A stretch of DNA of 42,539 nt from a virus. Position 1 is the first letter of the stretch. Every line of letters starts with the position of its first letter. Below, piece by piece: positions 9,305 to 42,539 of this stretch. The stretch spans positions 1 to 42,539 of the IMG/VR virus record IMGVR_UViG_3300024518_003154, one strand, 5' to 3'. The position numbers were made by a program, and so were the translations under genes. The notes below the pieces were generated by a model, which worked only from the letters and a program-made list of their open reading frames with translations, had not been told where the DNA came from and did no database searches.

Positions 9305-9323
9305 CTGACTATCAAGAAGTTAG

Positions 9324-9354
9324 TTGTATATAATGTATTATTTTAGTATTTTTG
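9324..9354 (+). promoter_or_regulatory. Promoter upstream of scaffold and capsid genes
   Basis: TTG (9324-9326), 20 nt, TATTTTTG (9347-9354), in the 82-nt gap after the portal gene. The spacing is the same as before the terminase genes. Confidence 0.6.
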
Positions 9355-9386
9355 ATTAGGAAAATCTAGTTACAAACCAAACTAAT

Positions 9387-10538: not shown

Positions 10539-10570
10539 AACGATTTATAAAATAATTAATATAAGATAAA

Positions 10571-18310: not shown

Positions 18311-19161
18311 TGCCAAATGTATTTAATATAGGAGGAGACAACTCCTTTGATAGAGATAATATAAATCAGCCACAGAAACCAATAGCTGATCAACCAGGAT
18401 ATAAACCACTTAGGGATGTTGTAAAGAGGACATTAGCTGAGATGGGAGAGACTGGAATGCATAAGTTTGCATTGTATAAAAGCTATGGCATTGATTTTCT
18501 AAGGGATTATTTCACCATGGTCGGAGCTTCTAGGAATGTAAAAACTAGAGAGCTTGAAGTTGATTCATTAAAAAGGGTCACCTTACCTGATGATTATATT
18601 GACACGGTAAAGATCGGAGTTAGAGTTGGAGACCATGTTGAGGTTTTTCTACATGATGAAGAATTAGCTTTATATACAGACACATCTGAATGCGGAGTTA
18701 ATCAACCAAACCCTAGCACTCACTCACAAGAGGATGAGGCATCGTTTGACTATAGCAATGGATCTTGGTTCTCTAATCCTTTAAACTCTTATGGAGAGCA
18801 TACAGGAGGGTTTTACGGGTATGGAGCAAGTAAAATAAAGAATAGCTTTACTATTGATAATGGGGCTATTCAATTAAGTTCTAATATTACATGTGAAACT
18901 ATATACATTGAATATATTAGTTCGGATATAATTTACGGAGAAGATACTTTTGTTCCTATCATTGCAGAAGAGGCTTGCAAGTCTTACATTAAATGGAAGT
19001 TTGAAAGCGATAGAAGACAGCCTGTAGAATATATTGTTAATAGAAGGCAAAGAGAATACTCAAATAATATTAAATTAGCTAAGAGAAGGTTGAAACCTTT
19101 AACTGTAGAAGATATAATTCACGCTACAAGAGCTGCATTTAACATGAATTTCAAATCTTAA
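18310..19161 (+). CDS. Tail tubular or stopper-like connector protein
   Basis: The 283-residue protein starts with a short disordered stretch. It then has the helix 'LRDVVKRTLAEMGETGMHKFALYKSYGIDFLRDYF', a beta core ('VKIGVRVGDHVEVFLHDEELALY'), and a C-terminal helical end 'EEACKSYIKWKFESDRRQPVEYIVNRRQREYSNNIKLAKRRLK'. That end is characteristic of T7 gp11-type tail tubular proteins, where it packs against the nozzle. It is coupled by TAATG overlaps to both neighbours and lies directly before the nozzle gene, as expected. Confidence 0.6.
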   Translation: MPNVFNIGGDNSFDRDNINQPQKPIADQPGYKPLRDVVKRTLAEMGETGMHKFALYKSYGIDFLRDYFTMVGASRNVKTRELEVDSLKRVTLPDDYIDTVKIGVRVGDHVEVFLHDEELALYTDTSECGVNQPNPSTHSQEDEASFDYSNGSWFSNPLNSYGEHTGGFYGYGASKIKNSFTIDNGAIQLSSNITCETIYIEYISSDIIYGEDTFVPIIAEEACKSYIKWKFESDRRQPVEYIVNRRQREYSNNIKLAKRRLKPLTVEDIIHATRAAFNMNFKS

Positions 19162-25376: not shown

Positions 25377-28300
25377 ATGCCTAACGAAGGAGATAATAAC
25401 AACCCATCAAAAATAGATTACAAAGATTTTGCTGCAAACATAAAACAGAAACATCCTGAAAACAAAGATGTACCTGATTTAGAATTAGCGGAAAAATGGA
25501 TAGAAAGATACCCTGACTATAAAGATCATATAACCTTACCTGTAAAAAAAAACGAATCTTCTCAAGAGTCTACGAATGGCTCTCAAGACCTCTCTTCTAA
25601 AGAGACTAATGGAGAGAAACTAAAACCTCTTACGTTAGGGGATGACACTTTAGCAGAAGAGACTCCTAAAGATGAGATGTATGGCGATCCATTAACTGTA
25701 GATCATCCGAAACCATACGATGAAACAAGTACTATTGATTTTTATAGATCTGTTGATTCATACTCCCCTTTAGGTGTAAATAACGTTGATACTAGAAGTG
25801 TTAGTGATTGGATGGGAAACTTGAATCCTAAATTAAATAGCTTTGAGGCCCTAAAAAAAAGAGAGGAAGAGAAGGATCAAGCAGGGTTTAATCGTGAAAA
25901 AGACATAAAAAACAGGTATAATACCGATCTAGAGAAAATAAAAGGCAATGTTAAAACAATGTCTGAATATTCTCAAGAAGATCTAAAAAAGCTAAAAGGA
26001 ACATCGTTTGGTGCTTTTTTGCCTGATATCGATGTACCTAGTGTAGATGCTGCCCCTAGATTTTTTCAACTTAAGGCTAATAGATTAAATGAATCTCAGG
26101 AAGATATAATTAGACAACTTGATGCTGTTCAAGAAGAATATAATTCTAATGTAGATAATAAACAGCTAGTTGCTGTTGGACTTGACAGTAAAGAACGGAT
26201 GGAGCTTGAAGCTCAGTCGTTACGAGATAAGAAGGGTGTTTTATTAAAACAGTTAGCTTTAGTTACTCATGAATTATCTGGTCTTAGAAAAATATATCCT
26301 ACTGCAGGATATAATGAAGAGCAAAGGATTAATAACGCTTCTCAAGAGGTTTTACATAGTGAATATCGCAGACAGTCAGAAAAACTTATGTCCGATCTAG
26401 GACTAGATTTAGAGGAGGCTACAGACAAGACGAGGATGCATTGGGGTACGGCAACCCCAAAAGAAAAAGAAAGCGATATAACTTTAATGAAGGAGTTTAT
26501 CGATTATTCTAAAATGGTTAAGAATGTAGGTAAATCTAAACAAGAGGTGTGGAAAGATATTCTTTATCAGAAATATTTCCCAATGCTTAAAGAAGCTGTA
26601 TCTAGGCATGACCCTCACACGATGGGGTGGGAGTCTAGGAATGAATGGATGGATAATCTTCAGAAACTAGATGAGGGGAGTCTATTTTTGAAGGGGAAAT
26701 TTATGGAGGGTAGTGAGATACAAGATTTGGTACGTAAATATCAGATTTTATATACTATGGCTGAAAAAAATCTTGATCCAATTAAGGTTTTTGGATGGGA
26801 GAAGCCAGATCCTGATAATACAGATTTCCCTACGGGGTGGGATTTGTTTTTTGGCCCTACATTACAAGAATATGGTGTTCATAAAGCTATAGGTAATGCT
26901 TTTTCAGGAACTTACGAAGGTGTTCAAGAGATGTTTTCTTTTTTACCTGATAGCTACAATGAGACGCAAATATCCGCGAATACTACATCCGCAGGTTTGT
27001 CAGACCCAATGGAACTTAGAAAGTTGATATCTGAGTCTTTTAGTGAGAATAATCTCCAAATGACGGATGGCCTTAAAAAATATGTTGAAAATCCTGAAGT
27101 ACAGGATTTAGTAGCGAGTACTATGAGAACAACAGCAAATTTAGGGATTAAAATGGCTGCTGGAAGTAAAGTATTAAAAGGATCTATAGGTTTATTTGAA
27201 GGGTTAAATCCAGCACTTGTTGGACAATATGCTCAATTAATTTCTGCGGTAGATAAGGTAAAAAAAACAACAACAAATCCTTTTGCTAAGGCTGGCGCAA
27301 ATTTAATATTAAATGCTCCTAAATTAATTGAGACTGGATTGAAGTATGAAACAGTTAATTTATTGTATAATGAAAAAGGAGCTAATTTCACATCAGGTGC
27401 TGCTGGACAGGCAGGTGCTGATTTGGCTGTATCTTTAATATCTAAATTGCCAGGGATAGCTAAATGGGCTGATACTGCTACCATAAAAATGATCGCCAAG
27501 ATGTTAGGAGGCTCAATGGGTGAGTTTACTGAAGAGTCTATTCAAACGATAAGTCAAGATGGTCTTGACAAGTATTTTGCAATGATGAAGGATGACAAGC
27601 AACGAGCTGCTTTCTTAGTCAGCACAATGGGAATGGGTATTATTGCAGGAGCTAATGCAGGTAACTTAGATATTACTAAATGGGCTACTAAGCATATAGA
27701 GTCTATGCCTCCAGAATTAAGAACATCACTTAAAGATTATTTAGGTCTTACTGAAATAGAGTCGGCAGTCGATGAGAAGATTGACGACAAGTCTAAAGCT
27801 TTACTTGAGACTATAGAAGAACCTGATGTAGATACGGAGGTTGACACAGACACAGAGGCTGAACCTGATGTAGATACGGAGGTTGACACAGACACAGAGG
27901 CTGAAGCTGATGTAGATACGGAGGTTGACACAGACACAGAGGCTGAAGCTGATGTAGATACGGAGGTTGACACAGACACAGAGGCTGAAGCTGATAAAAA
28001 AGCTAAAGTAGAAGCTGAGTCTGATGAAAAAACAGAAAATGAATTAAAGGATGAAATTGTACTTTACGAGTCTTTGAAAGAGAAATCTGATAGTAAAGAA
28101 GAAACAGAGTTCTTCGATAAAAAAATTGATGATAATCTTTCTAAATTAGATGCTATAGAGCAAGATAGATTGAGTGCAGAAGAAGAAACTATAAATGATT
28201 TTGATGATTCTGTAGGAGAAAAAGTTAATTACGAAGGAATTGAAGGGGCTTTATCTAAAACGGACGATGGATATCATGTTATAGATGATAATGGAGACGT

Positions 28301-31300
28301 ACACACTATAGAAGGAGGGTTATCGGGTAAAACGCCAACCGAACTAGGGGTTAAAAATGTATCAAAAGATAAATCCACAGTAGGGACTGAAAAAGAGTTG
28401 TCGGAAGACTCTCCTGTTATGGGGTTTGATCCTGAGTCAAATAAAGTTGTTGTTTATGGGAAGGAGTATGATTATTTAGGGGTTGAAACAGACAAGGAAG
28501 GTAACACTACAGCTATCCGAGTAAAGGATAAGAATGGCAAAACTAAATTTATTAGGAATGAGGACGCTATTTTAGAGGTTGAAATACAAAAAGAACTTTT
28601 CGAATCAGAAAATGCCACCTCAAATTGGACTCAAGAAGATCTTGAAGCTAAAATAAAAGAAACAAAAGTAAAAGAGAAGAACAGTGAAAAATCAAAGGAC
28701 AAACCTAAACCCAGCCGTGATCAAAAGGTTGCAGCAATTCAGCAAGAAAGATCAGTTGAAGCTGATAAAAGAGCTAAAGAAAAGTTAAAAGATCTAGCTA
28801 AAGCTAAAAAAGCTAAAGTAGAATCGAAGACTGAAACTGATGTAGACTCAAAAGTTGTTGACGAGAGTTCCAAAACTAAACCTGTTGATGAAAAAACAAA
28901 AGAAACCAAAAAAGGAAAAACAAAAGAAACAAAAGGAAGAGTTCAAAAAGAATCCTCCAAAGACTCTGGACGAGATACTGAGATCAGTGAAGGTTCAGGG
29001 GTTCAGTTAGAATCTAAAACAGAGAAAGATGGAATACAAGATGAAAAAACAGAACCGAGTACAGAAGGTTCAAAAGATGGCAGCAAAACTAAAAAAAGTA
29101 AGCCAGTACAAGAAGGATCAACAGGAACAAAAGTAGTCGTTCAAAAAGAATCCTCCAAAGACTCTGGACAAGATACTAAGAAGGATTCTAGTGCGCCTAA
29201 TTTTGAGACAAAACCTATTACATCTACAGAATCAGAGAGATCCGATAGATCTAAGAAGAGGATATCTAAAACGATGCCTCCTGAAGTGGCAGCTAAGGTT
29301 CATGCTATTCCAGAAGGAAAGATTAAGACTAAGGCAGATCTTAAGAAGTTAAAAGATAGCGTAGATCCTAAATACCATGCAGCAATCGATCGAGAGGTTT
29401 TTGATCATATACAAAGCAAAAAGGCGACAGAAAGAAGTAACAGGGTAAAGTCTCAAAAGAAATCTACTAGAAAATGGTCTTCAGAGAAAACTAGGAAACG
29501 TTTTGCAAGAGACGCTAAAAGGCTTGCTAAATCTGTTTTAGGTGTTGATGTAGAGACAGATCCTCAAGCTATACAAGATGCGTGGATAGCTAAAGGAAAA
29601 GTCGGATCTCCAGACCCTGCATTTCAACATGGTAACAAAGTTTATGTTGATATTGATCAGTCAGGCCCAGATTCATTACCTCATGAATTTGCTCATGTTT
29701 GGCTTCAATCTATTAAAAACCAATCCCCAGCGTTATTTCAAAAAGGGATAGATTTGATAGAGAATTCCCCTGAATGGAAGGAAGATTTTGGTGATCTTGA
29801 TGTAGATAAAGATAAAAAACTTGAGGAAGTAGAAGAAAGGCTTGCTGAGGCTATCGGTTTAGAGGTAGCGGACTTGTTGGATAAATCTAAGATAAAAAGA
29901 TGGGTAGATGATGTCAAGAGTTGGATAACAAAGAAGTTAAGGTTAACTCCAAGTGTCGATCTAAATAAGATGACTTTACCTAAAATGATTAAGATGGCAG
30001 CTAACGAGCTTGCCAGAGGAAAAGGAGGATTGGTAGTATCTAATTTAAAAGAACCTGAAACAGCGGATTTCAATCCATCTACATTTAAGATGACAGATGC
30101 TAATGTTAAAAACTATTATGCTTTTAAAGCTATAGAAGAGTCTGTTTTATCCAACAACGAAGAGATGTTAGAGATTGTTGAACAATCAAAGATTGAGACT
30201 GTAAGGAGTTATTGGAATGGCTTTATCAATTTTATAGCTGATAACGATAGGTCATGGGACGTATTTCAAGAAAAAATCAAGAAGAATTATCGGAAAAAAG
30301 TTTCTGAAGAAATAAAAAGACAAAGAGATAGCGGTAAAATTGGTCATAAAGAAGCTAAGGCTATGAAAAAAGCTATGAATAGCAAAGCTTTTGAGAAAAC
30401 AATTGGAGATGCTGCTGATGTATATGCTCTTTTAGATTTACAAGGGACAAAAACTTCTGGTAAGTTTAATAATTGGGCTAAAACTTGGTTTGGTTCATCT
30501 TCAGAAGAAGATTCTCATGGAGGTCTTATCCATATACTTTCATATAGCACTAATACTTCACTCAAAAAATTTGGAGAGAGAAAATTAGATGAGAACGCTA
30601 TATTATATAAGCTTAGAGAAGAAGGGTTGACTTTAAGTGACGTAGGGTTTTGGAGACATTTAAATCATGCTGCTGAAAGAAACACTAGGGGTGCTGAGAT
30701 TGTATATGAAACGTTAAAAAAAGAGATAGAAAAAGGCAATAAAGATTGGTTTTCAAAGAAAGGTGTTTCTGAAGAAACTATTAACGATATAATGTCTGAG
30801 TTGAGTAAAGCCAAGAAAGGCTTAGATAAAGATTTAAATATAGAGTTAGAAAAAGCTAAGAAAATTCAAGATAAAGATGAGAGAAAGGTGTTTAGAGATA
30901 AAGCTAGGGAGGCACACAATAACGAGCTATATAAGGTTATAGAAAATATAGCTGGGGAAGCCTTATTGGAAACGGATTTAGCCTCAATAATCCCTGTTAA
31001 AACATCAGGATTCACGACAGAAGATGCTCAACATAGAATTGATAAAATCAAAGGAGAATCCACTCCAGAGCAACTAAAACTCTTAGAGGACGTTAGCAAA
31101 GAGATGGGTAAGGCTTTTCATGATATATTAGACATGAAAGTTGATGCAGGGATTATCACTGCTGAATCAAGAGATTTTCTAAAGGGAATGTTTGAAAACT
31201 ATGTCCCGTTAAGAGTTATAGAGAAGACAGATCCTTCATCTAAATTAGGTCGAGGAGTTTATAGTGATAATATTAAAAAGTTGCAGCCAAGCGATAAATA

Positions 31301-33164
31301 TGATTACTGGGAGAGGGAAAATCCTGAAGTGGCTATGTTTTCAGATTACCAAAGAGCTTTGCAAGATGTTCATAAGAATGAGACATTGACAGGGGTAGCT
31401 GAAATGATTAGATCTCATCCAACCGCAACGATTAACGGAAAAGTTGCATGGGAGGTTTCTGATAAAAAACCTGTGGGTATATCGACTAAAAAAGGGGATA
31501 TAGAGCCAATCCCATTCATGGAGAATGGAGAGTTAAAATGGATTATGATTAGAGATTACAACCTTTACAAATCCCTTGGCCCTAAAACTCCGAATCCTAA
31601 ATGGCTTAAACAATCGTTGAGGGTAGCACAATTTGCTGGCAATTTCTGGAAAACAGGGAAAACTGCTTTGAATATCGAATTTATCCCAACAAACTTTTCA
31701 AAAGATTTTCAAGAAGCTCTTCTAAACATCTCTATGCATGATAAAAAGGGGGTTAGACGAGCTGTAGCTAAAGGAGTTTTCCCTTCGATGGGTGCGGTTC
31801 GTAGAGTTACTTTAGGAAAAGGGAATCCTTCGAATAAATACGATGCTGCTTTGAATCGATTAATAGAAGCTGGAGGAACTATTGATTTTCTAGATAGAGC
31901 AGATATGCAGTCTATTCAAAAAATGATTAATAAACAGGCTAGTAAGTTTAAAAAATCAACACCTGGCGTTGGGGCTATAAAAAGGGTTACTAATATAGGA
32001 GTATTGCCTCTAAGAGCTTCTTTTAAAGCTATCATCATGGCTAATAAAATGACAGAATTAGGGGTTAGATTAAGTGCTTTCGAAGCTTTGACATCTAGGG
32101 GTGTTAGTGATCAAAAAGCAGCTCAAATAGCTAAAAACTTGACTGTTAACTTCGATAAAAAAGGGGATGCAGGGGTTATAATGAATGCTTTATATATGTT
32201 TTCTAACGCATCGGTAGGAGGGAAGCTTGTAATGAATAAAGGTCTTATTAGATCAAAACGTATTCAAAAAACACTTTTGGCTGTTGCTGCTTGGAGGGTG
32301 GCTGATCTTGCAGCAATGTATATGCATGATGATGGCGAGGAGGATAATCCTGACAAGCAAACTATGTCGAAAATGTATGATCATGAGATAAGGGGGAATT
32401 GGATGATTCCATTCGGGGATGAAATCTACACTATTCCTATACCTAATGGTATGCAAGAATACACCTCGATAATAGATGACTTGTTCTTCTTAGCTATGGG
32501 CAAAAAAACTGTCCCTGAAGTCGTTGTAGATCAAACATATTCACAAGCTAGAGGATGGTTGCCTTTTATGCCTGCTAATAAAGATATGACGGGTAAAGCA
32601 GGGGCTTGGATGCCTACATTAGCTCAATGGCCTTTTGAATATTCAGACAATGTAGATTATTTCACAGGACATCCAATGTATAGAGATCAATACAGTAAGT
32701 TTTCTAAAGAGTATAATTACGAAATGGGAAAGGCAAACGATCCTGAATACCTAAAAGATATAACAAAAGTGTTGTTTGATGCCACTAACGGGAATGTTGA
32801 TATAAATCCATCGGTTATATATGATTTTCTAAATAATTATGCACAAGGAGGGGTGCATTCTGTAATTGATGCAGGAAGAAGGGGTTTTGAAGCTGCTAAT
32901 GGGAATACGGAAAAAATCCTTTTGGCTCAGAAGGTTTCGGTAGGAGCTAAAGAGGGATCTAGAAGTAGGCTTATTAAGCAGTATGAACGGGAACTTAGGG
33001 CTTTATTAGATAAAGGGTCGGAGAATAAGTTAACTAAAGAGGAGAAAGATAAAATCAAACCTTTATTGACTATCCTTGCAAAATATAAGTCTAAGTCATA
33101 TTCTTATCTTAGAAAGGATGCTAGTGCTGCACTTACCCAACAAAAGGAACGATATGGTAAGTAA
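25377..33164 (+). CDS. Giant polyvalent ejection protein (zincin plus LPD38-like)
   Basis: The 2595-residue protein is the last and largest internal protein. Residues 1-40 have a 'FAANIKQKHPENKDVPDLELAEKWIERYPDYKDHI'-type entry helix. Helical parts follow to about 800, then an acidic tandem repeat (817-872) and a long charged disordered stretch to about 1330. Residues 1434-1441 (LPHEFAHV) give the HExxH motif of zinc metallopeptidases, with downstream 'EEVEERLAEAIG' offering a third ligand. Near residue 2257, 'NFDKKGDAGVIMNALYMFSNASVGG' resembles the LPD38 domain of large polyvalent proteins. These are injected with DNA and act on host targets or the envelope. No sugar hydrolase was recognised. 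Confidence 0.7.
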   Translation: MPNEGDNNNPSKIDYKDFAANIKQKHPENKDVPDLELAEKWIERYPDYKDHITLPVKKNESSQESTNGSQDLSSKETNGEKLKPLTLGDDTLAEETPKDEMYGDPLTVDHPKPYDETSTIDFYRSVDSYSPLGVNNVDTRSVSDWMGNLNPKLNSFEALKKREEEKDQAGFNREKDIKNRYNTDLEKIKGNVKTMSEYSQEDLKKLKGTSFGAFLPDIDVPSVDAAPRFFQLKANRLNESQEDIIRQLDAVQEEYNSNVDNKQLVAVGLDSKERMELEAQSLRDKKGVLLKQLALVTHELSGLRKIYPTAGYNEEQRINNASQEVLHSEYRRQSEKLMSDLGLDLEEATDKTRMHWGTATPKEKESDITLMKEFIDYSKMVKNVGKSKQEVWKDILYQKYFPMLKEAVSRHDPHTMGWESRNEWMDNLQKLDEGSLFLKGKFMEGSEIQDLVRKYQILYTMAEKNLDPIKVFGWEKPDPDNTDFPTGWDLFFGPTLQEYGVHKAIGNAFSGTYEGVQEMFSFLPDSYNETQISANTTSAGLSDPMELRKLISESFSENNLQMTDGLKKYVENPEVQDLVASTMRTTANLGIKMAAGSKVLKGSIGLFEGLNPALVGQYAQLISAVDKVKKTTTNPFAKAGANLILNAPKLIETGLKYETVNLLYNEKGANFTSGAAGQAGADLAVSLISKLPGIAKWADTATIKMIAKMLGGSMGEFTEESIQTISQDGLDKYFAMMKDDKQRAAFLVSTMGMGIIAGANAGNLDITKWATKHIESMPPELRTSLKDYLGLTEIESAVDEKIDDKSKALLETIEEPDVDTEVDTDTEAEPDVDTEVDTDTEAEADVDTEVDTDTEAEADVDTEVDTDTEAEADKKAKVEAESDEKTENELKDEIVLYESLKEKSDSKEETEFFDKKIDDNLSKLDAIEQDRLSAEEETINDFDDSVGEKVNYEGIEGALSKTDDGYHVIDDNGDVHTIEGGLSGKTPTELGVKNVSKDKSTVGTEKELSEDSPVMGFDPESNKVVVYGKEYDYLGVETDKEGNTTAIRVKDKNGKTKFIRNEDAILEVEIQKELFESENATSNWTQEDLEAKIKETKVKEKNSEKSKDKPKPSRDQKVAAIQQERSVEADKRAKEKLKDLAKAKKAKVESKTETDVDSKVVDESSKTKPVDEKTKETKKGKTKETKGRVQKESSKDSGRDTEISEGSGVQLESKTEKDGIQDEKTEPSTEGSKDGSKTKKSKPVQEGSTGTKVVVQKESSKDSGQDTKKDSSAPNFETKPITSTESERSDRSKKRISKTMPPEVAAKVHAIPEGKIKTKADLKKLKDSVDPKYHAAIDREVFDHIQSKKATERSNRVKSQKKSTRKWSSEKTRKRFARDAKRLAKSVLGVDVETDPQAIQDAWIAKGKVGSPDPAFQHGNKVYVDIDQSGPDSLPHEFAHVWLQSIKNQSPALFQKGIDLIENSPEWKEDFGDLDVDKDKKLEEVEERLAEAIGLEVADLLDKSKIKRWVDDVKSWITKKLRLTPSVDLNKMTLPKMIKMAANELARGKGGLVVSNLKEPETADFNPSTFKMTDANVKNYYAFKAIEESVLSNNEEMLEIVEQSKIETVRSYWNGFINFIADNDRSWDVFQEKIKKNYRKKVSEEIKRQRDSGKIGHKEAKAMKKAMNSKAFEKTIGDAADVYALLDLQGTKTSGKFNNWAKTWFGSSSEEDSHGGLIHILSYSTNTSLKKFGERKLDENAILYKLREEGLTLSDVGFWRHLNHAAERNTRGAEIVYETLKKEIEKGNKDWFSKKGVSEETINDIMSELSKAKKGLDKDLNIELEKAKKIQDKDERKVFRDKAREAHNNELYKVIENIAGEALLETDLASIIPVKTSGFTTEDAQHRIDKIKGESTPEQLKLLEDVSKEMGKAFHDILDMKVDAGIITAESRDFLKGMFENYVPLRVIEKTDPSSKLGRGVYSDNIKKLQPSDKYDYWERENPEVAMFSDYQRALQDVHKNETLTGVAEMIRSHPTATINGKVAWEVSDKKPVGISTKKGDIEPIPFMENGELKWIMIRDYNLYKSLGPKTPNPKWLKQSLRVAQFAGNFWKTGKTALNIEFIPTNFSKDFQEALLNISMHDKKGVRRAVAKGVFPSMGAVRRVTLGKGNPSNKYDAALNRLIEAGGTIDFLDRADMQSIQKMINKQASKFKKSTPGVGAIKRVTNIGVLPLRASFKAIIMANKMTELGVRLSAFEALTSRGVSDQKAAQIAKNLTVNFDKKGDAGVIMNALYMFSNASVGGKLVMNKGLIRSKRIQKTLLAVAAWRVADLAAMYMHDDGEEDNPDKQTMSKMYDHEIRGNWMIPFGDEIYTIPIPNGMQEYTSIIDDLFFLAMGKKTVPEVVVDQTYSQARGWLPFMPANKDMTGKAGAWMPTLAQWPFEYSDNVDYFTGHPMYRDQYSKFSKEYNYEMGKANDPEYLKDITKVLFDATNGNVDINPSVIYDFLNNYAQGGVHSVIDAGRRGFEAANGNTEKILLAQKVSVGAKEGSRSRLIKQYERELRALLDKGSENKLTKEEKDKIKPLLTILAKYKSKSYSYLRKDASAALTQQKERYGK
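27825..27992. repeat. Four tandem copies of a 42-bp acidic repeat
   Basis: Each unit encodes DVDTEVDTDTEAE followed by Pro or Ala. The copies are almost identical in DNA, the visible difference being CCT versus GCT at the last codon, so the array is young or kept homogeneous. Confidence 0.9.
28941..28979. repeat. 39-bp direct repeat, first copy
   Basis: Encodes VQKESSKDSGRDT; it matches 38 of 39 bases with 29139-29177, which is 198 bp (66 codons) downstream in the same frame. Confidence 0.8.
29139..29177. repeat. 39-bp direct repeat, second copy
   Basis: Encodes VQKESSKDSGQDT; the single base change relative to the copy at 28941 turns Arg into Gln. Confidence 0.8.
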
Positions 33165-36228: not shown

Positions 36229-36245
36229 GTTATTTTTTTTAAGTT

Positions 36246-36324
36246 ACAAACATACCACAATATACCATGTTCATTTGGTTTAAAAGGCGTTTTGGTATGT
36301 ATAGTGCATTTTACTCAGTTGTTA
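36246..36324 (-). promoter_or_regulatory. 79-bp promoter repeat, copy 1
   Basis: It contains TATGTTTG (36254-36247, minus strand), matching TAnnTTTG, in front of the replication operon. ACATACC and GGTATGT form inverted arms inside it. It differs from copy 2 at five of 79 positions. Confidence 0.75.
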
Positions 36325-36331
36325 TAATCAA

Positions 36332-36490
36332 TTAATCAGAAAAAACAGGTTCGGTTTCTTCCATTATTAACACCTCGCTACCCTTAACAATTATTTCTTC
36401 AATATTACACCAACTTTCACCATTTGAGATGACGACAATTTTATCGTTATCTATTTTATCCAATTTTTCTTTTAGTTCTTTTACCGTCAT
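36332..36490 (-). CDS. 52-residue conserved-type small phage protein
   Basis: The frame from ATG at 36490 reads 'MTVKELKEKLDKIDNDKIVVIS' followed by 'SWCNIEEIIVKGSEVLIMEE'. That is the pattern of small phage proteins in which an N-terminal helix 'KELIEKLxKLDPDKEVVI' leads into short beta strands. Coding is supported by this resemblance and by the fit between the promoter repeat and the next intergenic element. Its 3' end is 7 nt from the promoter repeat. Function unknown. Confidence 0.65.
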   Translation of the reverse strand: MTVKELKEKLDKIDNDKIVVISNGESWCNIEEIIVKGSEVLIMEETEPVFSD

Positions 36491-36564
36491 TTTTTCTAAT
36501 TAAAATATTATAACATTGTTTAAAATTCATTAAAACGAAATTTTACACCTACCATTAGCTGTAA

Positions 36565-36777
36565 TTACTTTCTAGTTCTAATTTCGCTCCATCTAAAGTC
36601 TTCTAACTGTGATAAACTCCAAACACTCTCGTTTTTATTCAAATCATCTCTATATTCAACAGTCCCAAAAAAGCGAAGACCTATTTTTTTACACTCGTAA
36701 ATAACACTTCCTTTATATAGGTTAGAGAACTCACATTCTTCATTTGCGTACTTTTCTATTAATTCTTTCAATTCCAT
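36565..36777 (-). CDS. Hypothetical protein, 70 residues
   Basis: I place the start at the ATG at 36777 ('MELKELIEKYANEECEFSNLYKG') because the 15 residues upstream would lie in the palindromic intergenic element. The protein has an N-terminal helix and then a beta-rich part ending 'SQLEDFRWSEIRTRK'. The stop is followed by an AT-rich spacer of the cassette-element type (AGCTAATGG...). Function unknown; length and style suit a cassette-type accessory protein. Confidence 0.55.
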   Translation of the reverse strand: MELKELIEKYANEECEFSNLYKGSVIYECKKIGLRFFGTVEYRDDLNKNESVWSLSQLEDFRWSEIRTRK

Positions 36778-36793
36778 AATTCTATCAATAACA

Positions 36794-36886
36794 GCTAACA
36801 CTGTATAAAACAGCATAGCCAATTAAACATTTATTTTTAATAACCTACTTTACTGCTAGGCTACGCAGTTTATACTCAACGTTAGC
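36794..36886. repeat. 93-bp imperfect palindrome, attC-like
   Basis: Outer GCTAAC (36794) pairs with GTTAGC (36881-36886), then TATAAA with TTTATA, and then inner GCATAGCC with GGCTACGC with one mismatch. The arms are separated by short unpaired spacers and close on a 38-nt loop. Paired outer and inner boxes with mismatched spacers are the architecture of integron attC sites. Confidence 0.6.
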
Positions 36887-36887
36887 A

Positions 36888-37241
36888 TTAATTATTTTTA
36901 CTAACGATATTTCTATACATAGACAAGAAAGGAACACGCCATCCTGCTACTTTAACTTTGTAAGTCTTACCTACCGTAAATTTATTTTGATAATCCGCAG
37001 AGTTAAATTTAAAGTATAACCAACTGTCTGTATTTTCAAACACTTCTGTTTCAGAGTAAATAATAAATTTACTTTCTATGTTCTCACCTTTACCAGTAGT
37101 AATCCTTTCTTTTTCTTCAATGCTTACTTCAATGGTTTCTGCACTCATTTTGTAGGCTATTGGATAAGCCGTAAAAATCACTAATGCTAACACAATGTAT
37201 AATGCATAGCCACTAAATAGTCTTTTAAATAATCTGTTCAT
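36888..37241 (-). CDS. DUF1523-like membrane protein
   Basis: The 117-residue protein has one N-terminal membrane helix (about residues 13-30) and a beta-rich soluble part with 'EVFENTDSWLYFKFNSADYQNKF' and 'YKVKVAGWRVPFLSMYRNIV'. Those two blocks closely resemble the DUF1523 family found in phages and proteobacteria, whose function is not known. The gene sits between two palindromic elements. The helix would place it in the inner membrane with the domain outside. Confidence 0.65.
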   Translation of the reverse strand: MNRLFKRLFSGYALYIVLALVIFTAYPIAYKMSAETIEVSIEEKERITTGKGENIESKFIIYSETEVFENTDSWLYFKFNSADYQNKFTVGKTYKVKVAGWRVPFLSMYRNIVSKNN

Positions 37242-37318
37242 TTTTATATAATTTAATTGTTAATATTCAAGTTTGTAGCTTTTAAAGTGGCTACGACACC
37301 ATACACAAACCATTGTGC

Positions 37319-37525
37319 TTAATTGTGTTCGTCACACACATAACCACTATTTGCCCCGTTGTTTCCGTATCTTGGGCTTTTTCCATTTCTACAAAATCCT
37401 TCATCACTTGGTTCTTCATCGTCAAAATAAGCATCTCTAAAGCTCTCAAAGTATTTGCAATTAATGCAACTAAGCACAACATTTTGTATAGTGCATTGTT
37501 CCTTCTTTTTACTTTCTTCTTCCAT
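37319..37525 (-). CDS. Cysteine-rich small protein
   Basis: The 68-residue protein has Cys-x2-Cys in 'LSCINCKYFESF', then 'DEGFCRNGKSP' and 'SGYVCDEH'. Four or five cysteines plus a C-terminal His could form one zinc site. This pattern recurs in small uncharacterised phage and plasmid proteins. An overlapping frame is less regular, so I prefer this one. It lies between two palindromic elements of the cassette-like array. Confidence 0.6.
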   Translation of the reverse strand: MEEESKKKEQCTIQNVVLSCINCKYFESFRDAYFDDEEPSDEGFCRNGKSPRYGNNGANSGYVCDEHN

Positions 37526-37554
37526 TATTTATAAGTTTTTGATATTAATTTACT

Positions 37555-37615
37555 TTAGTGTCAACGCACCATACAAGGGGCGTTGTAGTGCATTAAAACG
37601 ACACCACAACACTAA
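37555..37615. repeat. Nested palindromic element, attC-like
   Basis: Outer TTAGTGT (37555-37561) pairs with ACACTAA (37609-37615). Inside, CAACGC (37562-37567) pairs with GCGTTG (37580-37585), and two more base pairs follow a mismatch. Confidence 0.45.
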
Positions 37616-37633
37616 TATAAAATCAATAAATTA

Positions 37634-37807
37634 TTACTTTGTCCGTTCACACTTACTCATTAGCTGGCTATACAAAATACCTTTTTCAGTAATGTATGTA
37701 TTCATATTTCCGCACCACATATAACCTTGCTTGCCTAGTTTGTTCATCTCTTTTTCAAATGTGTTTTTATCTCCTTCTACTACAATGTAATCTGTCTTAT
37801 AATCCAT
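37634..37807 (-). CDS. 57-residue hypothetical protein
   Basis: Read from ATG at 37807: 'MDYKTDYIVVEGDKNTFEKEMNKLGKQGYMW' then 'YITEKGILYSQLMSKC'. The first part resembles the short domain in which a strand 'IVV' is followed by a helix 'TFEKEMNKLGKQGY', common in small phage and plasmid 'DUF4177-like' proteins. It fills the gap between two small genes exactly and has no rival frame. Function unknown. Confidence 0.6.
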   Translation of the reverse strand: MDYKTDYIVVEGDKNTFEKEMNKLGKQGYMWCGNMNTYITEKGILYSQLMSKCERTK

Positions 37808-37831
37808 AATTTTCTGTTTTTATATTTAACG

Positions 37832-38047
37832 TTATATGGTATTTAATCTTTCTGTAATGAAAAACACCTCTAACTCTTCTTTATATTTGGTTCTTAATCG
37901 TTTCGTGTCAATCCTATTATATGAGTCAAATAATCTAATTATTTGTTTTGTTATATCTAAATTCTTTCTTAAATCTCCTTCTTTATAATTATCAACCTTG
38001 TTTTTAACTTCTTTTTCTATTTCATTAAAATATTCTTCCGTAATCAA
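37832..38047 (-). CDS. Hypothetical helical protein, 71 residues, TTG start
   Basis: The whole product is helical, basic and acidic in alternation ('EYFNEIEKEVKNKVDNYKEGDLRKNLDITKQIIRLFDSY'). No ATG is available in the N-terminal part, so translation most likely starts at the TTG at 38047, 6 nt before the hairpin at 38054. The upstream element belongs to the cassette-like family. Function unknown. Confidence 0.5.
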   Translation of the reverse strand: MITEEYFNEIEKEVKNKVDNYKEGDLRKNLDITKQIIRLFDSYNRIDTKRLRTKYKEELEVFFITERLNTI

Positions 38048-38053
38048 TTAACA

Positions 38054-38091
38054 CCACGTAACACATTGTAAAAATAATAGCTGTTATGTGG
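38054..38091. repeat. Hairpin element in the cassette-like array
   Basis: CCACGTAACA (38054-38063) pairs with TGTTATGTGG (38082-38091), with one G-U pair and an 18-nt loop. The remaining 38092-38180 is AT-rich intergenic sequence with no gene visible. Confidence 0.5.
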
Positions 38092-38180
38092 GTTTATTTA
38101 GCTATTACTTGTTTATATTGGGTAGTTGGTATTTCCGTTAGTATCCACAATATACAGATGTTATTTGAAGTAACAAATTG

Positions 38181-39269
38181 TTACTCGTTTATATTGTAAA
38201 TATCTTTCAACCCTTTTGACACGTTTAATCTGCCCCTTCCTAGTCGATCTTTAGTCCAAGATACTTTAAGTTGTTTACCTTCAAATGGATACATAGCGTG
38301 GGTATAGTCTCCTTGTTGAAAATGTCTCTTCATTTCTACATCAAGGGCTGAGACTTCATTTTGGATCTCTTTAATTTGATCTTTTAACAACTCCCTTTCA
38401 TACGCTACATCTAAAAGCTCAGGAGAGCCTTTTACTTCAACGATCTCTTGTGGGGGGATCAACCATTCATTTAACCATTCGGAGTCTTCAGGAGTGTTAA
38501 AATCAGGCTCTAGAGACTGGAGAACCCCAACGCCCTCCATTTGTTTTTTAGTGAAGTCTCTCATATCTGTATTTACGTATGTTTCAACTCCATATTCTTC
38601 TTTTATTTCTCTTGCAGCGAGGACTCTATCCCAGAACTCTGTTGATCGTTGTATAATCTCGTCCTGAAGATGAGGAATTGGTTCGATAGGATAGTACTCA
38701 TACATTGTACCATCAATCCGTTGGAATATCCCTCCTTTTTTGATTCCCGTGACAAGCATTTGCATTTGCACCTGGAGAATATATGCTAAATCTACCCCGT
38801 ATTTATGTCCTTTAACCGCATAGTTAGATGTGTTTTTTATTTCGGTTATAACTTTAGGTGTGTCAAGTTCATCTATTCCATCTAGGTTTACGAATAAATG
38901 AGGTATATCTTCATTTCGCCAAACGGTTGGGTCATCAAGGCATTCCCTTAGCTTTACCTTGCTTTTATAATTCTCCCACATCTCTAAGGTTTGTTCTTTC
39001 GCTGAAGATCCTTCTATGGGGTAATATTGAAACCTGTTCCTAATTACTTCCTCATCAAATGTCCCTGCATAGGTATAAATAGAAGGTTCGTTTTCTATCT
39101 CCTCTCCTATTTTTCGATAGTAAAGTTTACTTAATGGAGTCCATTTTGATAAATTGAATAGTCCTGATATTTCTGAAGCCCCTAATCCTGATGGGCCAAG
39201 AACATTTGTTCTGTATTCTTGCCATTCATCAAATGTTTGATCTCCTTTATTTATTCTAATTATAGCCAT
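38181..39269 (-). CDS. YqaJ-family recombination exonuclease
   Basis: The 362-residue protein has 'GASEISGLFNLSKWTPLSKLYYRKIG' (residues 30-55), Asp130 in 'VNLDGID', Glu143-x-Lys145 in 'VITEIKNT', and 'YILQVQMQMLVTG' (163-175). These are the catalytic and helical motifs of YqaJ/lambda-exonuclease-type enzymes. They chew one strand of duplex DNA to prepare it for annealing, with partners of the Erf/RecT/Bet type; such a partner is encoded at 40450-41115. A C-terminal helical extension of about 100 residues is longer than usual. It starts 12 nt after the -7 box of promoter repeat 2. Confidence 0.85.
   Translation of the reverse strand: MAIIRINKGDQTFDEWQEYRTNVLGPSGLGASEISGLFNLSKWTPLSKLYYRKIGEEIENEPSIYTYAGTFDEEVIRNRFQYYPIEGSSAKEQTLEMWENYKSKVKLRECLDDPTVWRNEDIPHLFVNLDGIDELDTPKVITEIKNTSNYAVKGHKYGVDLAYILQVQMQMLVTGIKKGGIFQRIDGTMYEYYPIEPIPHLQDEIIQRSTEFWDRVLAAREIKEEYGVETYVNTDMRDFTKKQMEGVGVLQSLEPDFNTPEDSEWLNEWLIPPQEIVEVKGSPELLDVAYERELLKDQIKEIQNEVSALDVEMKRHFQQGDYTHAMYPFEGKQLKVSWTKDRLGRGRLNVSKGLKDIYNINE
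38515..38526 (+). repeat. Dispersed motif site 18
   Basis: GACTGGAGAACC, antisense inside the YqaJ-family gene. Confidence 0.7.
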
Positions 39270-39280
39270 AATTTTAAATT

Positions 39281-39359
39281 ACAAACATACCACAATTTAC
39301 CATGTTCATTTAGTTTAAACAGCGTTTTGGTATGTCTAGTGCATTTTACTCAGTTGTTA
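39281..39359 (-). promoter_or_regulatory. 79-bp promoter repeat, copy 2
   Basis: TATGTTTG lies at 39289-39282 on the minus strand in front of the exonuclease gene. The inner arms ACATACC and GGTATGT are intact, and the last 25 bp match the other copies almost perfectly. Confidence 0.75.
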
Positions 39360-39368
39360 GTGGTAATA

Positions 39369-39557
39369 TTATCCCCAAGTTTTACACTCTACAATAGAAT
39401 ACTTGCCACTTTCACTCCATAATACAGCTCTATCATAGTCTGTATAATAACCGTATGTTTTTAATTCATCATCTTCTATTCTGTAAAGAAGCCAAATACT
39501 ACCACTAACACCGTATATAGCAAATAGCTTTTTTAGGTATTTAAAAAGTCTTTTCAT
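39369..39557 (-). CDS. Small hypothetical protein, 62 residues
   Basis: The product begins with a basic segment 'MKRLFKYLKKLF', then a short hydrophobic stretch 'AIYGVSGSIWLLY', which may be a weak membrane anchor. A beta part rich in Tyr/Asp follows. Its stop is 9 nt from promoter repeat 2. It belongs to the array of small leftward genes. No family was recognised. Confidence 0.5.
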   Translation of the reverse strand: MKRLFKYLKKLFAIYGVSGSIWLLYRIEDDELKTYGYYTDYDRAVLWSESGKYSIVECKTWG

Positions 39558-39628
39558 AATTCTAATTTTTTGTATTGTTTAATTAATTTTAGTGATAGCT
39601 ACTTGCCATACACAACTGTTAGCCACAA

Positions 39629-39817
39629 TTACTTTTCCATAATTGGTTGCCAACATTTGTGACACATTCCGTGTTCTCTGTCTTTATCATCATAAGGCTT
39701 GTTGCACTCGTAACAGTAGCTAACATTGTATAAAAAACATTGCTCTGCTTGGTGCTGTTTACCAAATAATCCATTCTCTTCTTGTTCGTGGGCTTCCCCA
39801 AATAATTCATAATCCAT
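39629..39817 (-). CDS. Small zinc-ribbon protein
   Basis: The 62-residue protein has 'SYCYECNKPYD' and 'GMCHKCWQPIM', two CxxC knuckles 15 residues apart forming a zinc ribbon at the C-terminal half. The alternative overlapping frame lacks this pattern, which decides the frame. An attC-like element (GTGGCTAACAG...) follows its stop at lower coordinates. Function unknown, possibly nucleic-acid or protein binding. Confidence 0.6.
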   Translation of the reverse strand: MDYELFGEAHEQEENGLFGKQHQAEQCFLYNVSYCYECNKPYDDKDREHGMCHKCWQPIMEK

Positions 39818-39844
39818 ATCGCTACGATTTTTTATACGTTTAAG

Positions 39845-40087
39845 TTATTTAGAACATGTAAGCAAACGCTCAATCTCTCTTGCTACGTTTCTTGTCATAC
39901 CTGCGGTAAACTTAGTTTGTGCAGGTTCTCTTTTTGGTGATTGTAACCAATCATATAACCTTTGTAATTCAAAATCAGAAGAATCACTAACAACCCCCAT
40001 TATTTCACTTATCATTTTATCCTTATTCTCTCTACCTACTAAGTAATTACCCTCAAGGTGTTTTTCTACTATTTCTGTTAATTTCAT
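39845..40087 (-). CDS. Hypothetical protein, 80 residues
   Basis: A helical protein with a short N-terminal helix 'LTEIVEKHLEGNY'. It continues 'FELQRLYDWLQSPKREPAQTKFTAGMTRNVAREIERLL', ending in Cys-Ser-Lys. The gap to the next gene contains a weak GCTACG...TTTATAC relative of the cassette elements. No family was recognised. Confidence 0.5.
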   Translation of the reverse strand: MKLTEIVEKHLEGNYLVGRENKDKMISEIMGVVSDSSDFELQRLYDWLQSPKREPAQTKFTAGMTRNVAREIERLLTCSK

Positions 40088-40139
40088 TAGTCATTTCGGT
40101 TTACTTAATCGGATAATTTCCGTTTATCTATACTTATAC

Positions 40140-40466
40140 TTACACCCAAGTATTATAGTTTTTTCTGTGATTATACTCTATTTTTAAGACTTCAGCATAC
40201 TCAAACACCCAGTTAAACTTTTTAACATCTCTTGCTTTGAATCCATGTATCTCTTGGTGGATCTCTGGTCGACAGATAAGAATATTCCTTTTATCTAGCC
40301 TCCCTTCAGGTGTAGATCCTTTGCTGAGTATATGATGAAAGTACCAAATTGAGAATGAAGGGGGGAGAGGCTTCCCCGTAACTTCACAGATACGAGGTTT
40401 CTCTTCCCACAATTCCTTCATCATTTGATGCTCTTGTTGTTTGAGTTTTTTACTTTTTGCCGACAT
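40140..40466 (-). CDS. HNH-like endonuclease
   Basis: The 108-residue protein has 'ICEVTGKPLP' (Cys27), then 'SIWYFHHILSKGSTPEGRLDKRNILICRPEIHQEIH', placing His44-His45, Asn61 and His70/His74 in the order of an HNH nuclease. The 'FHHILSKG...RNILI' wording resembles recombination endonucleases near phage annealing genes. Its start lies 17 nt inside the annealing-protein gene, so the two are probably made together. Substrate unknown. Confidence 0.65.
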   Translation of the reverse strand: MSAKSKKLKQQEHQMMKELWEEKPRICEVTGKPLPPSFSIWYFHHILSKGSTPEGRLDKRNILICRPEIHQEIHGFKARDVKKFNWVFEYAEVLKIEYNHRKNYNTWV

Positions 40467-41115
40467 TCTTCACTTGTTTAGTGATTTCAGAAGCAGCATC
40501 ATCCATTTTTGCTTGGTTTATAGGTTTAAAGTATTTTGAAGGTTTTGTTCCTTTATTAAGATCCATTACTATCTTTCTAAGATCCTCCAGTTTTTCAGGA
40601 TTAATCTCGTCTTTATCCAATATTTCTAATGCTAGGCATACTTGATCTTGAGTCACTTTAAATTTAGTCTCAAGGATTTTTAATGCGATATTTACAGACT
40701 CCCCATGACTTTTGGGTTTAGCTTCAATTTCTTGGATCTCCTGTGCCCGTTGAACTTCATCTAAAGAAGCAACTGCTCCATCAACACCTATCCCTAATAT
40801 CCCTAATGCCCGTCCAAATGCACTTGTTTCTGCATTTTCCGTGTGAGATGTGCTATTAATGAAGCCATTCCCTTTTAATTCCATAGCTGTCCCTTCAGCT
40901 ACAATAACTCCTTCAGAATTCCTTATCACGCCTTTGGCTATCGCTAATTTTTCATCTAGATGAATCCACTCTGTTCTAAGGCTATATCCTCTATATGTTT
41001 CAGATTCTCTAAAATACCTAAGTCTTTCAGCAACTTCAACATATTGTTTAGGCCCGTTTTTAGTCTTGAGAGTTATTGATTTTAATGGTCTAACTCCTTT
41101 TTTTTGATCTGTCAT
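40450..41115 (-). CDS. Single-strand annealing protein, Erf/Rad52-like
   Basis: The 221-residue protein opens with 'YVEVAERLRYFRES', continues with 'YSLRTEWIHLDEKLAIAKGVIRNSEGVIVAEGTAMEL', and has 'ENAETSAFGRALGILGIG' (residues 93-110). That block is the conserved signature of a common phage annealing family related to Erf and Rad52-like proteins. The C-terminal 100 residues are helical and Lys-rich. With the YqaJ exonuclease it would form a two-part recombination system that repairs or joins phage DNA ends. It overlaps the HNH gene and, by four bases, the next gene. Confidence 0.7.
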   Translation of the reverse strand: MTDQKKGVRPLKSITLKTKNGPKQYVEVAERLRYFRESETYRGYSLRTEWIHLDEKLAIAKGVIRNSEGVIVAEGTAMELKGNGFINSTSHTENAETSAFGRALGILGIGVDGAVASLDEVQRAQEIQEIEAKPKSHGESVNIALKILETKFKVTQDQVCLALEILDKDEINPEKLEDLRKIVMDLNKGTKPSKYFKPINQAKMDDAASEITKQVKNVGKK

Positions 41116-41435
41116 AATCTTAATTGGTTTTTAATTTGTTTAACTTTCGTTTTAGGGTCTCCTGTCGACAGGAGTTCCATATAAATCCTTCCTAATTTAA
41201 CTAGTTCTCTTAATGAAGAGTAATTAGTTTCTTTTAATATTTCTTGCTCATAGAATCGATTAGACCATGGAGCGTTAACATAGAACTTTACACCTATCTT
41301 CTTTACCCTGTCTTCTAGAAAATCACTCATTGATCCCTTCCTAAGTTTTCCGTTGAACTTAACTAGGGTATGAATCCTAGCTTTTTCTTCTTGCTTGAAT
41401 CTTCGTTTATATACTTGAGGATTGAGAAATTCCAT
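41112..41435 (-). CDS. Hypothetical basic protein, 107 residues
   Basis: A strongly basic, helical protein ('RRFKQEEKARIHTLVKFNGKLRKGSMSDFLEDRVKKIGVKFYVNAPWSNRFY'), with a C-terminal helix 'SSLRELVKLGRIYMELL'. It overlaps both neighbours by 1-4 bases, which supports translation as one unit with the annealing gene. The second 16-bp motif palindrome lies near its 3' end, encoding Leu-Leu-Ser-Thr-Gly. Nucleic-acid binding is plausible; family unknown. Confidence 0.6.
   Translation of the reverse strand: MEFLNPQVYKRRFKQEEKARIHTLVKFNGKLRKGSMSDFLEDRVKKIGVKFYVNAPWSNRFYEQEILKETNYSSLRELVKLGRIYMELLSTGDPKTKVKQIKNQLRL
41159..41174. repeat. Back-to-back dispersed motif, two exact sites
   Basis: CTCCTGTCGACAGGAG joins site 19 (41155-41166, GACAGGAGACCC on minus) and site 20 (41167-41178, GACAGGAGTTCC on plus), so here both halves are exact. 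Confidence 0.8.
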
Positions 41436-41674
41436 CAGAATGGTAAGTTTTTAGATTTAAATATTAGTTCTGGGTTTGGGTCTAATTTAAGCTTTGGGCG
41501 TAATTGTCTTTCACTCCACCACCTTCCATTAATTCGATATCTATTTGGAGTTTGTTTTTTAATCTCCCTCCAATCATACATTTTTTTATTCCTCATGAAT
41601 GGCTTTTTGTAAAGAACTCCATCTTCAGCTATAACATGATCATCAATTCCTTCAATTATCCATTTTGTAAACAT
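41435..41674 (-). CDS. Hypothetical protein, 79 residues
   Basis: 'WIIEGIDDHVIAEDGVLYKKPFMRNKKMYDWREIKKQTPNRYRINGRWWSERQLRPK' reads like a NUMOD-type mini DNA-binding domain (an 'xHVIAEDGVLYK' turn followed by basic helices), usually found next to HNH nucleases. The start is uncertain: ATG at 41674 lies in the -7 box of promoter repeat copy 3, and an in-frame ATG at 41689 lies further up in the repeat. It overlaps the downstream gene by one base. Confidence 0.5.
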   Translation of the reverse strand: MFTKWIIEGIDDHVIAEDGVLYKKPFMRNKKMYDWREIKKQTPNRYRINGRWWSERQLRPKLKLDPNPELIFKSKNLPF

Positions 41675-41745
41675 ACCATAATTTACCATGTTTATTTGCT
41701 TGAAACAATGTTTTGGTCAGTCTAGTGCATTTTACTCAGTTGTTA
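41667..41745 (-). promoter_or_regulatory. 79-bp promoter repeat, copy 3 (diverged)
   Basis: The same length as copies 1 and 2 but with more changes. The -7 box is TATGTTTA and the GGTATGT arm is altered, whereas the last 25 bp are nearly identical to the other copies. Confidence 0.65.
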
Positions 41746-41754
41746 GCATTAATA

Positions 41755-42348
41755 CTACGTCCATTGGTTTACCATTGCTTCAGCTATTCCTTTGTATGTT
41801 TTACTTCTTAGTTTTGCTCTATCTTTTGTTTTTGGTAATAAGTGCATCCTTTGCACTCTACCTTCTACAATATTTGTAGGTTCTAATTTAGGTAAGTTTC
41901 TAAGCCATAAACAAGTTGCTTTTGTTTCTCCGTGTCCAAACATCCAGGGTTGTAGTACTTGGTCGGGTTTTCTGAATCTACTACTCATAACACCTATAGG
42001 ATTTTCAATTCCTACTTTCGGTATCTTGCAATTGTACAACCTCATAAAAAAATCAATAGCCTCTTCCCTGGCTTCTCTTCTTTCAGCACCCACCAAAGTT
42101 CCGCTTTTTCTTTTAGGTTGGTCTTTATACCATTTATTCGCACTTACTGTTAAATATGTGCAAGTTGGGAAAAATATACCCATATCCCAATCCTTTAATT
42201 CTATTGCTTCAAACACATCCATTTGTAAATGCCATTCAGGATGTCCTCCGCTACTTTCTATCAAGTCACAACTATAAGCTTCGTGCCCTTGTTTTCTTAA
42301 TTCTATCGTAACCGCCTGGCTTTCTTCACAACCTACTAATATTTTCAT
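41755..42348 (-). CDS. Methyltransferase-like phage protein (PCTYL/ENP family)
   Basis: The 197-residue protein starts 'MKILVGCEESQAVTIELRKQGHEAYSCDL', like an AdoMet-binding fold. It has 'MGIFFPTCTYL' (61-66) where relatives have 'HPPCTYL', then 'VGIENPIG' (115-117) and 'LQPWMFGHGETKATCLWLRNLP'. I recognise this as a common phage family resembling the core of cytosine-5 methyltransferases (PC and ENV-type motifs). The usual Pro-Pro-Cys is Pro-Thr-Cys here, so activity is uncertain. A role in DNA modification, or as a decoy, is inferred. Confidence 0.6.
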   Translation of the reverse strand: MKILVGCEESQAVTIELRKQGHEAYSCDLIESSGGHPEWHLQMDVFEAIELKDWDMGIFFPTCTYLTVSANKWYKDQPKRKSGTLVGAERREAREEAIDFFMRLYNCKIPKVGIENPIGVMSSRFRKPDQVLQPWMFGHGETKATCLWLRNLPKLEPTNIVEGRVQRMHLLPKTKDRAKLRSKTYKGIAEAMVNQWT

Positions 42349-42380
42349 TTTATTAATTTTATCAGTTAATAATCCGTACT

Positions 42381-42430
42381 AATGCTAACAAGTATTAACG
42401 GCAATTAAAAAAGCCGTTACACTTATCATT
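42381..42430. repeat. 50-bp imperfect palindrome, attC-like
   Basis: AATGCTAACAAGTATTAACGGC (arms 42381-42402) mirrors the right arm ending ATCATT (42413-42430) with bulges; the inner AACGGC/GCCGTT pairing is perfect around a 10-nt loop. It overlaps the last stop codon of the next leftward gene. Confidence 0.6.
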
Positions 42431-42539
42431 AATAATCACGCATTGCTCTAAGTATAAGAGAATCTATCTCTTCCTCGTTGTCTTCATAAATTAATTCAAG
42501 AAAGTCAGATCCTTTATGTGTAAGGCTCGTTACCTCTTC
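42429..42539 (-). CDS. 3' end of a leftward gene, start outside the window
   Basis: The last 36 residues of an acidic protein are visible ('KGSDFLELIYEDNEEEIDSLILRAMRDY'), followed by TAA within the palindromic element. The frame is open to the window edge. Nothing more can be said about its identity. Confidence 0.5.
   Translation of the reverse strand, partial: EEVTSLTHKGSDFLELIYEDNEEEIDSLILRAMRDY

Follow-up and report, generated by a model that had tools for sequence, protein, structure and literature searches.

An integron cassette has a 5' end that complements its own R box, because both meet in the free circle. The promoter early stem-loop (PeSL) elements of T4-like phages are mobile regulatory cassettes, in which small genes are shuffled at repeated intergenic stem-loops next to an early promoter. 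Integrons have been reported from Bacteroidota in general. Clusters of attC sites lacking integrases (CALINs) are already known in virulent phages, and Qi et al. (2023, PMC9892861) describe them in 17 phage clusters, including Polaribacter phage P12002L, with one P12002L site recombined by IntI1 at G|TTRRRY in an assay. The present analysis concerns an array of small open reading frames (ORFs) and hairpin sites in IMG/VR virus record IMGVR_UViG_3300024518_003154, analyzed over positions 1 to 42,539 (the window). This region is probably an integrase-free cluster of integron-type cassettes, whose whole ORF units are exchanged by a tyrosine recombinase at the hairpin sites. The original prediction had likened the short genes and their hairpins to integron cassettes, a likeness supported here by matches to a covariance model and by gene-order change at such sites in other phages. 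A cassette-carrying phage, which it called notable, has a precedent, as phage cassettes were previously published (Qi et al. 2023, PMC9892861). The whole case is built on statistical and comparative sequence evidence.

The site at positions 36,794 to 36,886 reads, on the cassette sense (minus) strand, GCTAAC..GTATAAACTGCGTAGCC, a 38-nucleotide loop, and GGCTATGC..TTTTATAC..GTTAGC; the pairings first proposed for it are present as described. Nine junctions of other phages, and none of the window, went into a covariance model (R1). RNAalifold on a MAFFT alignment gave no consensus fold and the arms were misaligned; the structure for the model alignment (A2) was then written by hand, and the loops of PL38117, PS31688, L002, and PL32278 were shortened in it. 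Searched over the whole window, R1 has five matches, all on the minus strand between positions 36,504 and 39,628 (3.1 kb of the array), with E values of 9e-5 to 3.6e-4, and no match elsewhere in the window. An attC-type model had been proposed as the check on this region, and R1, drawn from other phages, matches the array specifically. A CALIN is recognized by at least two attC sites, each an imperfect hairpin with R and L boxes, a spacer, and a loop, and the array holds five R1 sites. Two stretches previously described as showing parts of a site (37,555 to 37,615 and 39,590 to 39,632) do hold sites, but these are complete and have a long loop, because several 3' arms fall within the next ORF.

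Standard pairs account for 86.5% of the arm pairing counts. Sixteen cells are changed on both sides, compared with 6.5 in shuffles, and none of 500 shuffles attained the covariation score. The strand carrying the phage ORF folds better than its complement (−176 and −147 kcal/mol, respectively, summed over 18 sites), owing to the conservation of several G.T pairs. The R boxes are GTTAGCT, GTTAGCA, GTTATAA, GTTGTGC, and GTTAGTG, in which GTT is constant and the remainder is relaxed.

The 5' end of the cassettes in the window is complementary to their own 3' end (p = 0.0004, permutation), while the control values in the window are p = 0.997 for core genes and p = 0.21 for structural genes. Own ends also match, by permutation, in Tenacibaculum phage JQ, P12002L, and P12002S. 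For 62 phage cassettes with R1-defined ends, the own 7-nucleotide match is 4.73, compared with 3.05 for other cassettes and 3.23 for the arms at the same junction (p = 0.0001). The own-end match of 24 chromosomal cassettes is 5.08 versus 3.05. The R-box register is ambiguous at GTTGTT, and the end matching gave the shuffles equal freedom. A junction hairpin pairing its two R boxes was considered and dropped, the match across the junction being no better than chance. The same gene can have different ends in two phages, both having changed together (GTTACC..GGTAAC in one, GTTGTATG..CATACAAC in the other). The own-end pairing and the joint change of both ends support integron-type cassettes over general patches of homology.

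The palindrome-derived pattern matched two other phage contigs and a tighter 5'-arm pattern matched six; one stricter genome pattern scan, with a pattern that was too strict, gave no matches. Exact copies of a 21-nucleotide core lie in another 55 viral stretches, one of them on a 368-kb contig, and 62 viral loci hold 118 sites. By R1 matches, P12002L belongs to the same site family as the window. Phages more than 94% identical differ by single cassettes. The near-identical phages L005/L007 and L008 differ by one gene between the ATPase and DnaA-like genes; the right breakpoint falls exactly on A|TAAC, and the left one where the 5' arm ends. The differences between Polaribacter phages P12002L and P12002S, whose backbone there is 99.6 to 100% identical, are a three-cassette insertion, a methyltransferase cassette insertion, two cassette swaps, and a changed position of one cassette. 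Five of their junctions were mapped; AA|C fits four, and the fifth lies further along the arm. Further exchanging pairs are L119/L125, L151/L159, and L107/L141. Across related phages AA|C fits seven of the nine mapped breakpoints, and gene-order change with breakpoints in the palindromes, as sought by the original prediction, is thus seen outside the window. A lone R1 site lies on the plus strand in the structural region of P12002S (L010, 14,482 to 14,616) and of P12002L (L013, 14,498 to 14,632).

Of 299 Flavobacteriaceae genomes, 65 have R1 sites, as do 14 of 296 genomes across Bacteroidota; two control sets from other groups, of 150 and 149 genomes, have none. The chromosomal sites are surrounded by arrays of one-ORF cassettes. 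In phages the nearest ORFs lie on the strand of the site (48:3, then 208:6 in further phages, for a total of 256:9), while in chromosomes the ORFs are opposite to it (108:11). The classical orientation, with attC after the stop codon and the folding strand antisense to the ORF, is that of the chromosomes and not of the phages. The classical order of ORF then attC was at first assumed for phages and was overturned by these strand counts. The phage cassettes look like the same units as those of the host with the ORF flipped. Given this reversal of the ORF with respect to the site, they appear to form a pool separate from that of the host and are not simply copied host cassettes. The conserved fold is taken as a feature of the DNA, since it is antisense to genes in chromosomes.

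Seven chromosomal array loci, six of which were chosen for a nearby recombinase, show an Xer/IntI-like tyrosine recombinase on the ORF strand. In L063 an 849-nucleotide cassette is present twice at 100% identity, one copy directly after the recombinase; the left end of the cassette is exactly G|TT. L062 and L064 have a common 940-nucleotide stretch with the same kind of ends. The five array recombinases scanned score 179 to 211 bits against TIGR02249 (cut-off 265), and none of 299 genomes has a score above that cut-off. Against NF040815 (XerA_Arch, cut-off 220) the array recombinases score 215 to 231 bits, and four of the five scanned have an N-terminal extension of about 100 amino acids. When the L061 recombinase is aligned to IntI4 (2a3v), the interval from IntI4 residue 181 to 242 is spanned by 18 residues, leaving about 40 IntI4 residues unmatched; this stretch without a counterpart is presumably the additional domain specific to IntI. 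A small zinc-ribbon gene adjoins and diverges from the recombinase in L061 (15,949 to 16,338), L063 (2,913 to 3,308), L066 (1,514 to 1,888), and L067 (2,140 to 2,607). Its product in L061 is DUF2116-like, below the DUF2116 cut-off. This divergent gene is possibly a partner of the recombinase or a directionality factor. L092 (2,371 to 19,325) contains a long superintegron-like chromosomal array with many sites of about 190 nucleotides that are about 90% identical, and a recombinase at 18,306 to 19,481. In the chromosomal array of L063, a multi-gene restriction-modification-like unit (5,323 to 11,141) lies between two copies of one cassette.

The window contains three copies of a repeat (D1), which is 88 nucleotides long and not 79 bp as first reported. 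All are on the minus strand. Copy 1 (36,237 to 36,324) lies in front of core genes leading to the DnaB-like helicase, copy 2 (39,272 to 39,359) in front of the YqaJ/RecE-like exonuclease operon, and copy 3 (41,658 to 41,745) in front of a core operon; the latter two are 93% and 78% identical to the first. Read on the minus strand, the copies start with TAACAACTGAGTAAAATGC, the same motif as the 5' arm of the sites, which confirms the earlier placement of one repeat end in the palindrome family. In copy 3 this arm is followed by an arm pair of the CATACCA..TGGTATG type. Three different cassettes abut D1 at identical nucleotides (NNTAAC|AACTGAGTAAAATGC), which suggests that D1 may be their common docking (attI-like) site.

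If the array consists of integron-type cassettes, each cassette would be composed of one small ORF and one attC-like site. The ORF-sense strand would fold to a hairpin whose stem tolerates G.T pairs and whose 5' arm has a bulge of 3 to 6 nucleotides. A tyrosine recombinase would exchange strands at the AA|C core of this arm, and whole ORF units would be inserted, excised, or swapped. The window was correctly described as lacking an integrase: neither TIGR02249 nor PF00589 has a match in its record, and a search of nine other phage records for tyrosine recombinases gave none. On the most likely account, exchange at AA|C of the phage sites would be the work of an Xer/IntI-like host recombinase supplied in trans. 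A broader and more tentative proposal is that the Flavobacteriaceae and their phages share an integron-type system whose Xer-like recombinase lacks the IntI-specific domain. Such a system might combine service in trans with a flipped phage gene pool and possible anti-defence cassettes, for example methyltransferases.

Several observations weigh against this interpretation. The R boxes fit approximately GTTRNNN and not GTTRRRY; of the box that the original prediction called approximate, GTT is conserved and the rest must be relaxed accordingly. Several junctions have a 5' arm only, with a clear 3' arm missing, and a methyltransferase cassette (P12002L gp36, P12002S gp38) was relocated without its hairpin. 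A recombinase of the array type was in view at only 2 of 20 unselected chromosomal loci. Genomes with an L061-type recombinase (at least 53% identity) are not enriched for R1 sites, with 13 shared and about 11 expected. A test for a genome-wide association of recombinase with R1 sites did not find one, and only the local co-location holds. Because few unselected loci have the recombinase and there is no enrichment, the link between recombinase and arrays is drawn from layout and cassette ends. Exact-match scans of IMG/VR with the D1 repeat core, the YqaJ protein, and TerL found no near relative of the window, so recombination was demonstrated in other phages that carry this family of sites and not in the window phage itself. 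Two of the nine breakpoints (P12002 J1 and the left breakpoint of L005/L008) fall away from AA|C, elsewhere within the 5' arm or at its end, and are better explained by homologous exchange.

The main rival is exchange through short homologies, driven by recombination genes of the phage itself. The conserved 25-nucleotide 5' arm would then be a patch for a phage annealing recombinase (ERF/RecT with YqaJ) or for template switching, in the manner of PeSL elements. Every mapped breakpoint lies within the 5' arm or at its end, the window has a YqaJ/RecE-like exonuclease, and the annotation of P12024L lists ERF and YqaJ domains. We nevertheless regard such shuffling as rather unlikely, since it fails to predict own-end pairing without pairing of the arms at the same junction, the joint change of both ends from copy to copy, or the presence of such sites, with G|TT ends, next to a chromosomal recombinase. 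The hairpins could also be RNA elements (terminators, processing sites, or translational controls) that lie incidentally at boundaries of phage gene exchange; the folding strand in phages is the sense strand, wobble pairs are tolerated, and the arms are often within the leader of the next gene. This is very improbable given that chromosomal R1 matches are opposite to the ORFs (11:108), so that the fold is absent from mRNA there, that own-end pairing spans entire ORFs, and that Rfam gave no family at threshold for the hairpins and one sub-threshold chance match. The phages lack an integrase and some sites are half-sites, as might be expected of passive debris, in which host cassettes were captured once by illegitimate recombination and the sites are now dead. 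That origin is very improbable: the ORF orientation is the reverse of that in host cassettes, closely related phages still differ by single cassettes, and both ends of each cassette remain matched.

All features of the array are on the minus strand. The methyltransferase-like cassette ORF (phrog_757, 41,755 to 42,348) has own ends GTTAGCATTAGTAC and GTATTAATGCTAAC that are 94% complementary. The hairpin site upstream of it (42,376 to 42,430; AACGGC..GCCGTT, then GTTAGCATTAGTAC) was read and folded and is not an R1 match. A zinc-ribbon-like cassette ORF of 62 amino acids (39,629 to 39,817), with an own end GGCTAAC read by eye, has its start codon in the loop of its own site, and the 3' arm GTTAGCTAC is within the ORF at about position 39,718. 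The attC-like site at 39,499 to 39,628 scores 29.1 bits with R1 (E value 1.5e-4), and the cassette ORF at 39,369 to 39,557 (62 amino acids) has own ends GTTAGTGGTAGTATT and AATATTACCACTAAC. The site arms at 38,054 to 38,091, upstream of the 71-amino-acid cassette ORF at 37,832 to 38,047, are partial and without an R1 match; the ends of this ORF, GTTACGTGG and CCATATAAC, were read by eye, and their permutation rank is not significant. A small ORF of 57 amino acids (37,634 to 37,807) is a probable cassette whose own ends rank 1 of 10.

The attC-like site at 37,470 to 37,593 (30.0 bits, E value 9e-5) has its 3' arm within the next ORF, a Cys-rich cassette ORF of 68 amino acids (37,319 to 37,525) with own ends GTTGTGCTTAGTTG and CAATTAAGCACAAT. 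Next is the attC-like site at 37,181 to 37,322 (28.6 bits, E value 2e-4), followed by the secreted DUF1523/phrog_301 cassette ORF of 117 amino acids (36,888 to 37,241), with own ends GTTAGCATTAGTGATTTTTAC and GTAAAAATAATTAATGCTAAC. Several phage cassettes have the start codon in the hairpin loop and a 3' arm that codes for an N-terminal membrane segment, such as GYALYIVLA of this protein (37,181 to 37,241) and SYAFYTLLA in L002 (20 to 161). Relatives of the DUF1523 protein occur in 169 records of phages, those of Staphylococcus, Vibrio, Bacillus, and Pseudomonas among them. The attC-like site at 36,789 to 36,891 (27.5 bits, E value 3.6e-4) is the best palindrome of the original prediction. It is followed by a cassette ORF of 70 amino acids (36,565 to 36,777) whose own ends rank 3 of 10, an attC-like site with a short loop (36,504 to 36,564; 28.3 bits, E value 2.3e-4), and a cassette ORF of 52 amino acids (36,332 to 36,490) with a 26-nucleotide inverted repeat of its own ends.

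The window is a linear fragment of a virus, without an attached host genome, and encodes a terminase, a portal, and a long internal virion protein. Its early genes, which include those for the DnaB-like helicase and the YqaJ/RecE-like exonuclease, occupy the minus strand between about 42.5 and 34 kb. Interleaved with these core early operons are about nine small minus-strand ORFs, whose products are a methyltransferase, the secreted DUF1523 protein, two Cys-rich or zinc-ribbon-like proteins, and otherwise unknowns. The host is likely a member of the Flavobacteriia, because the terminase is closest to those of phages of Flavobacterium, Cellulophaga, and Maribacter. Outside the array, an acidic tandem repeat (DTEVDTDTEAEADV; 27,737 to 27,995) lies within a protein of 2595 amino acids (25,377 to 33,164), and an ORF among the structural genes (16,402 to 17,022) resembles, as judged by eye, a family-25-type glycosyltransferase (IYYINLDARTDRRSDM).

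If correct, the interpretation as integron-type cassettes would account for single small genes common to unrelated Bacteroidota phages, and lytic phages would gain a specialized route for exchanging accessory genes without encoding the enzyme themselves. The flipped ORF orientation is a clean and testable signature. A candidate integron recombinase comes from the chromosomal arrays; searches based on the IntI domain, such as IntegronFinder, would be expected to overlook it. No description of inverted phage cassettes or of this Flavobacteriaceae recombinase was found in the literature searched, which excluded subscription papers and preprints, and within that literature the inverted orientation and the type of host recombinase appear to be new.

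The phage CALINs of Qi et al. (2023) are like the window in being carried by phages without an integrase and in having attC sites and methyltransferase cassettes. The main text of that paper does not contain the inverted ORF orientation, own-end pairing, mapped cassette exchanges, wide occurrence in IMG/VR phages, or matching Flavobacteriaceae recombinase of the present analysis. The Vibrio-type sedentary chromosomal integron shares the array of one-ORF cassettes, the folded single-strand attC, and own-end pairing, and its G|TT ends are shared by the Flavobacteriaceae chromosomal arrays. It differs in that the phage ORFs are flipped and intI is absent, and in that the host recombinase reaches 179 to 211 bits against a TIGR02249 cut-off of 265. 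PeSL cassettes resemble the window in that small phage genes are shuffled at repeated intergenic stem-loops; they are not known to show own-end pairing or to have a chromosomal counterpart next to a recombinase. With the Xer/XerA-type model (NF040815), the host recombinases of the arrays score around the cut-off. Unlike that type, they adjoin cassette arrays, and the long N-terminal extension is present in four of the five scanned.

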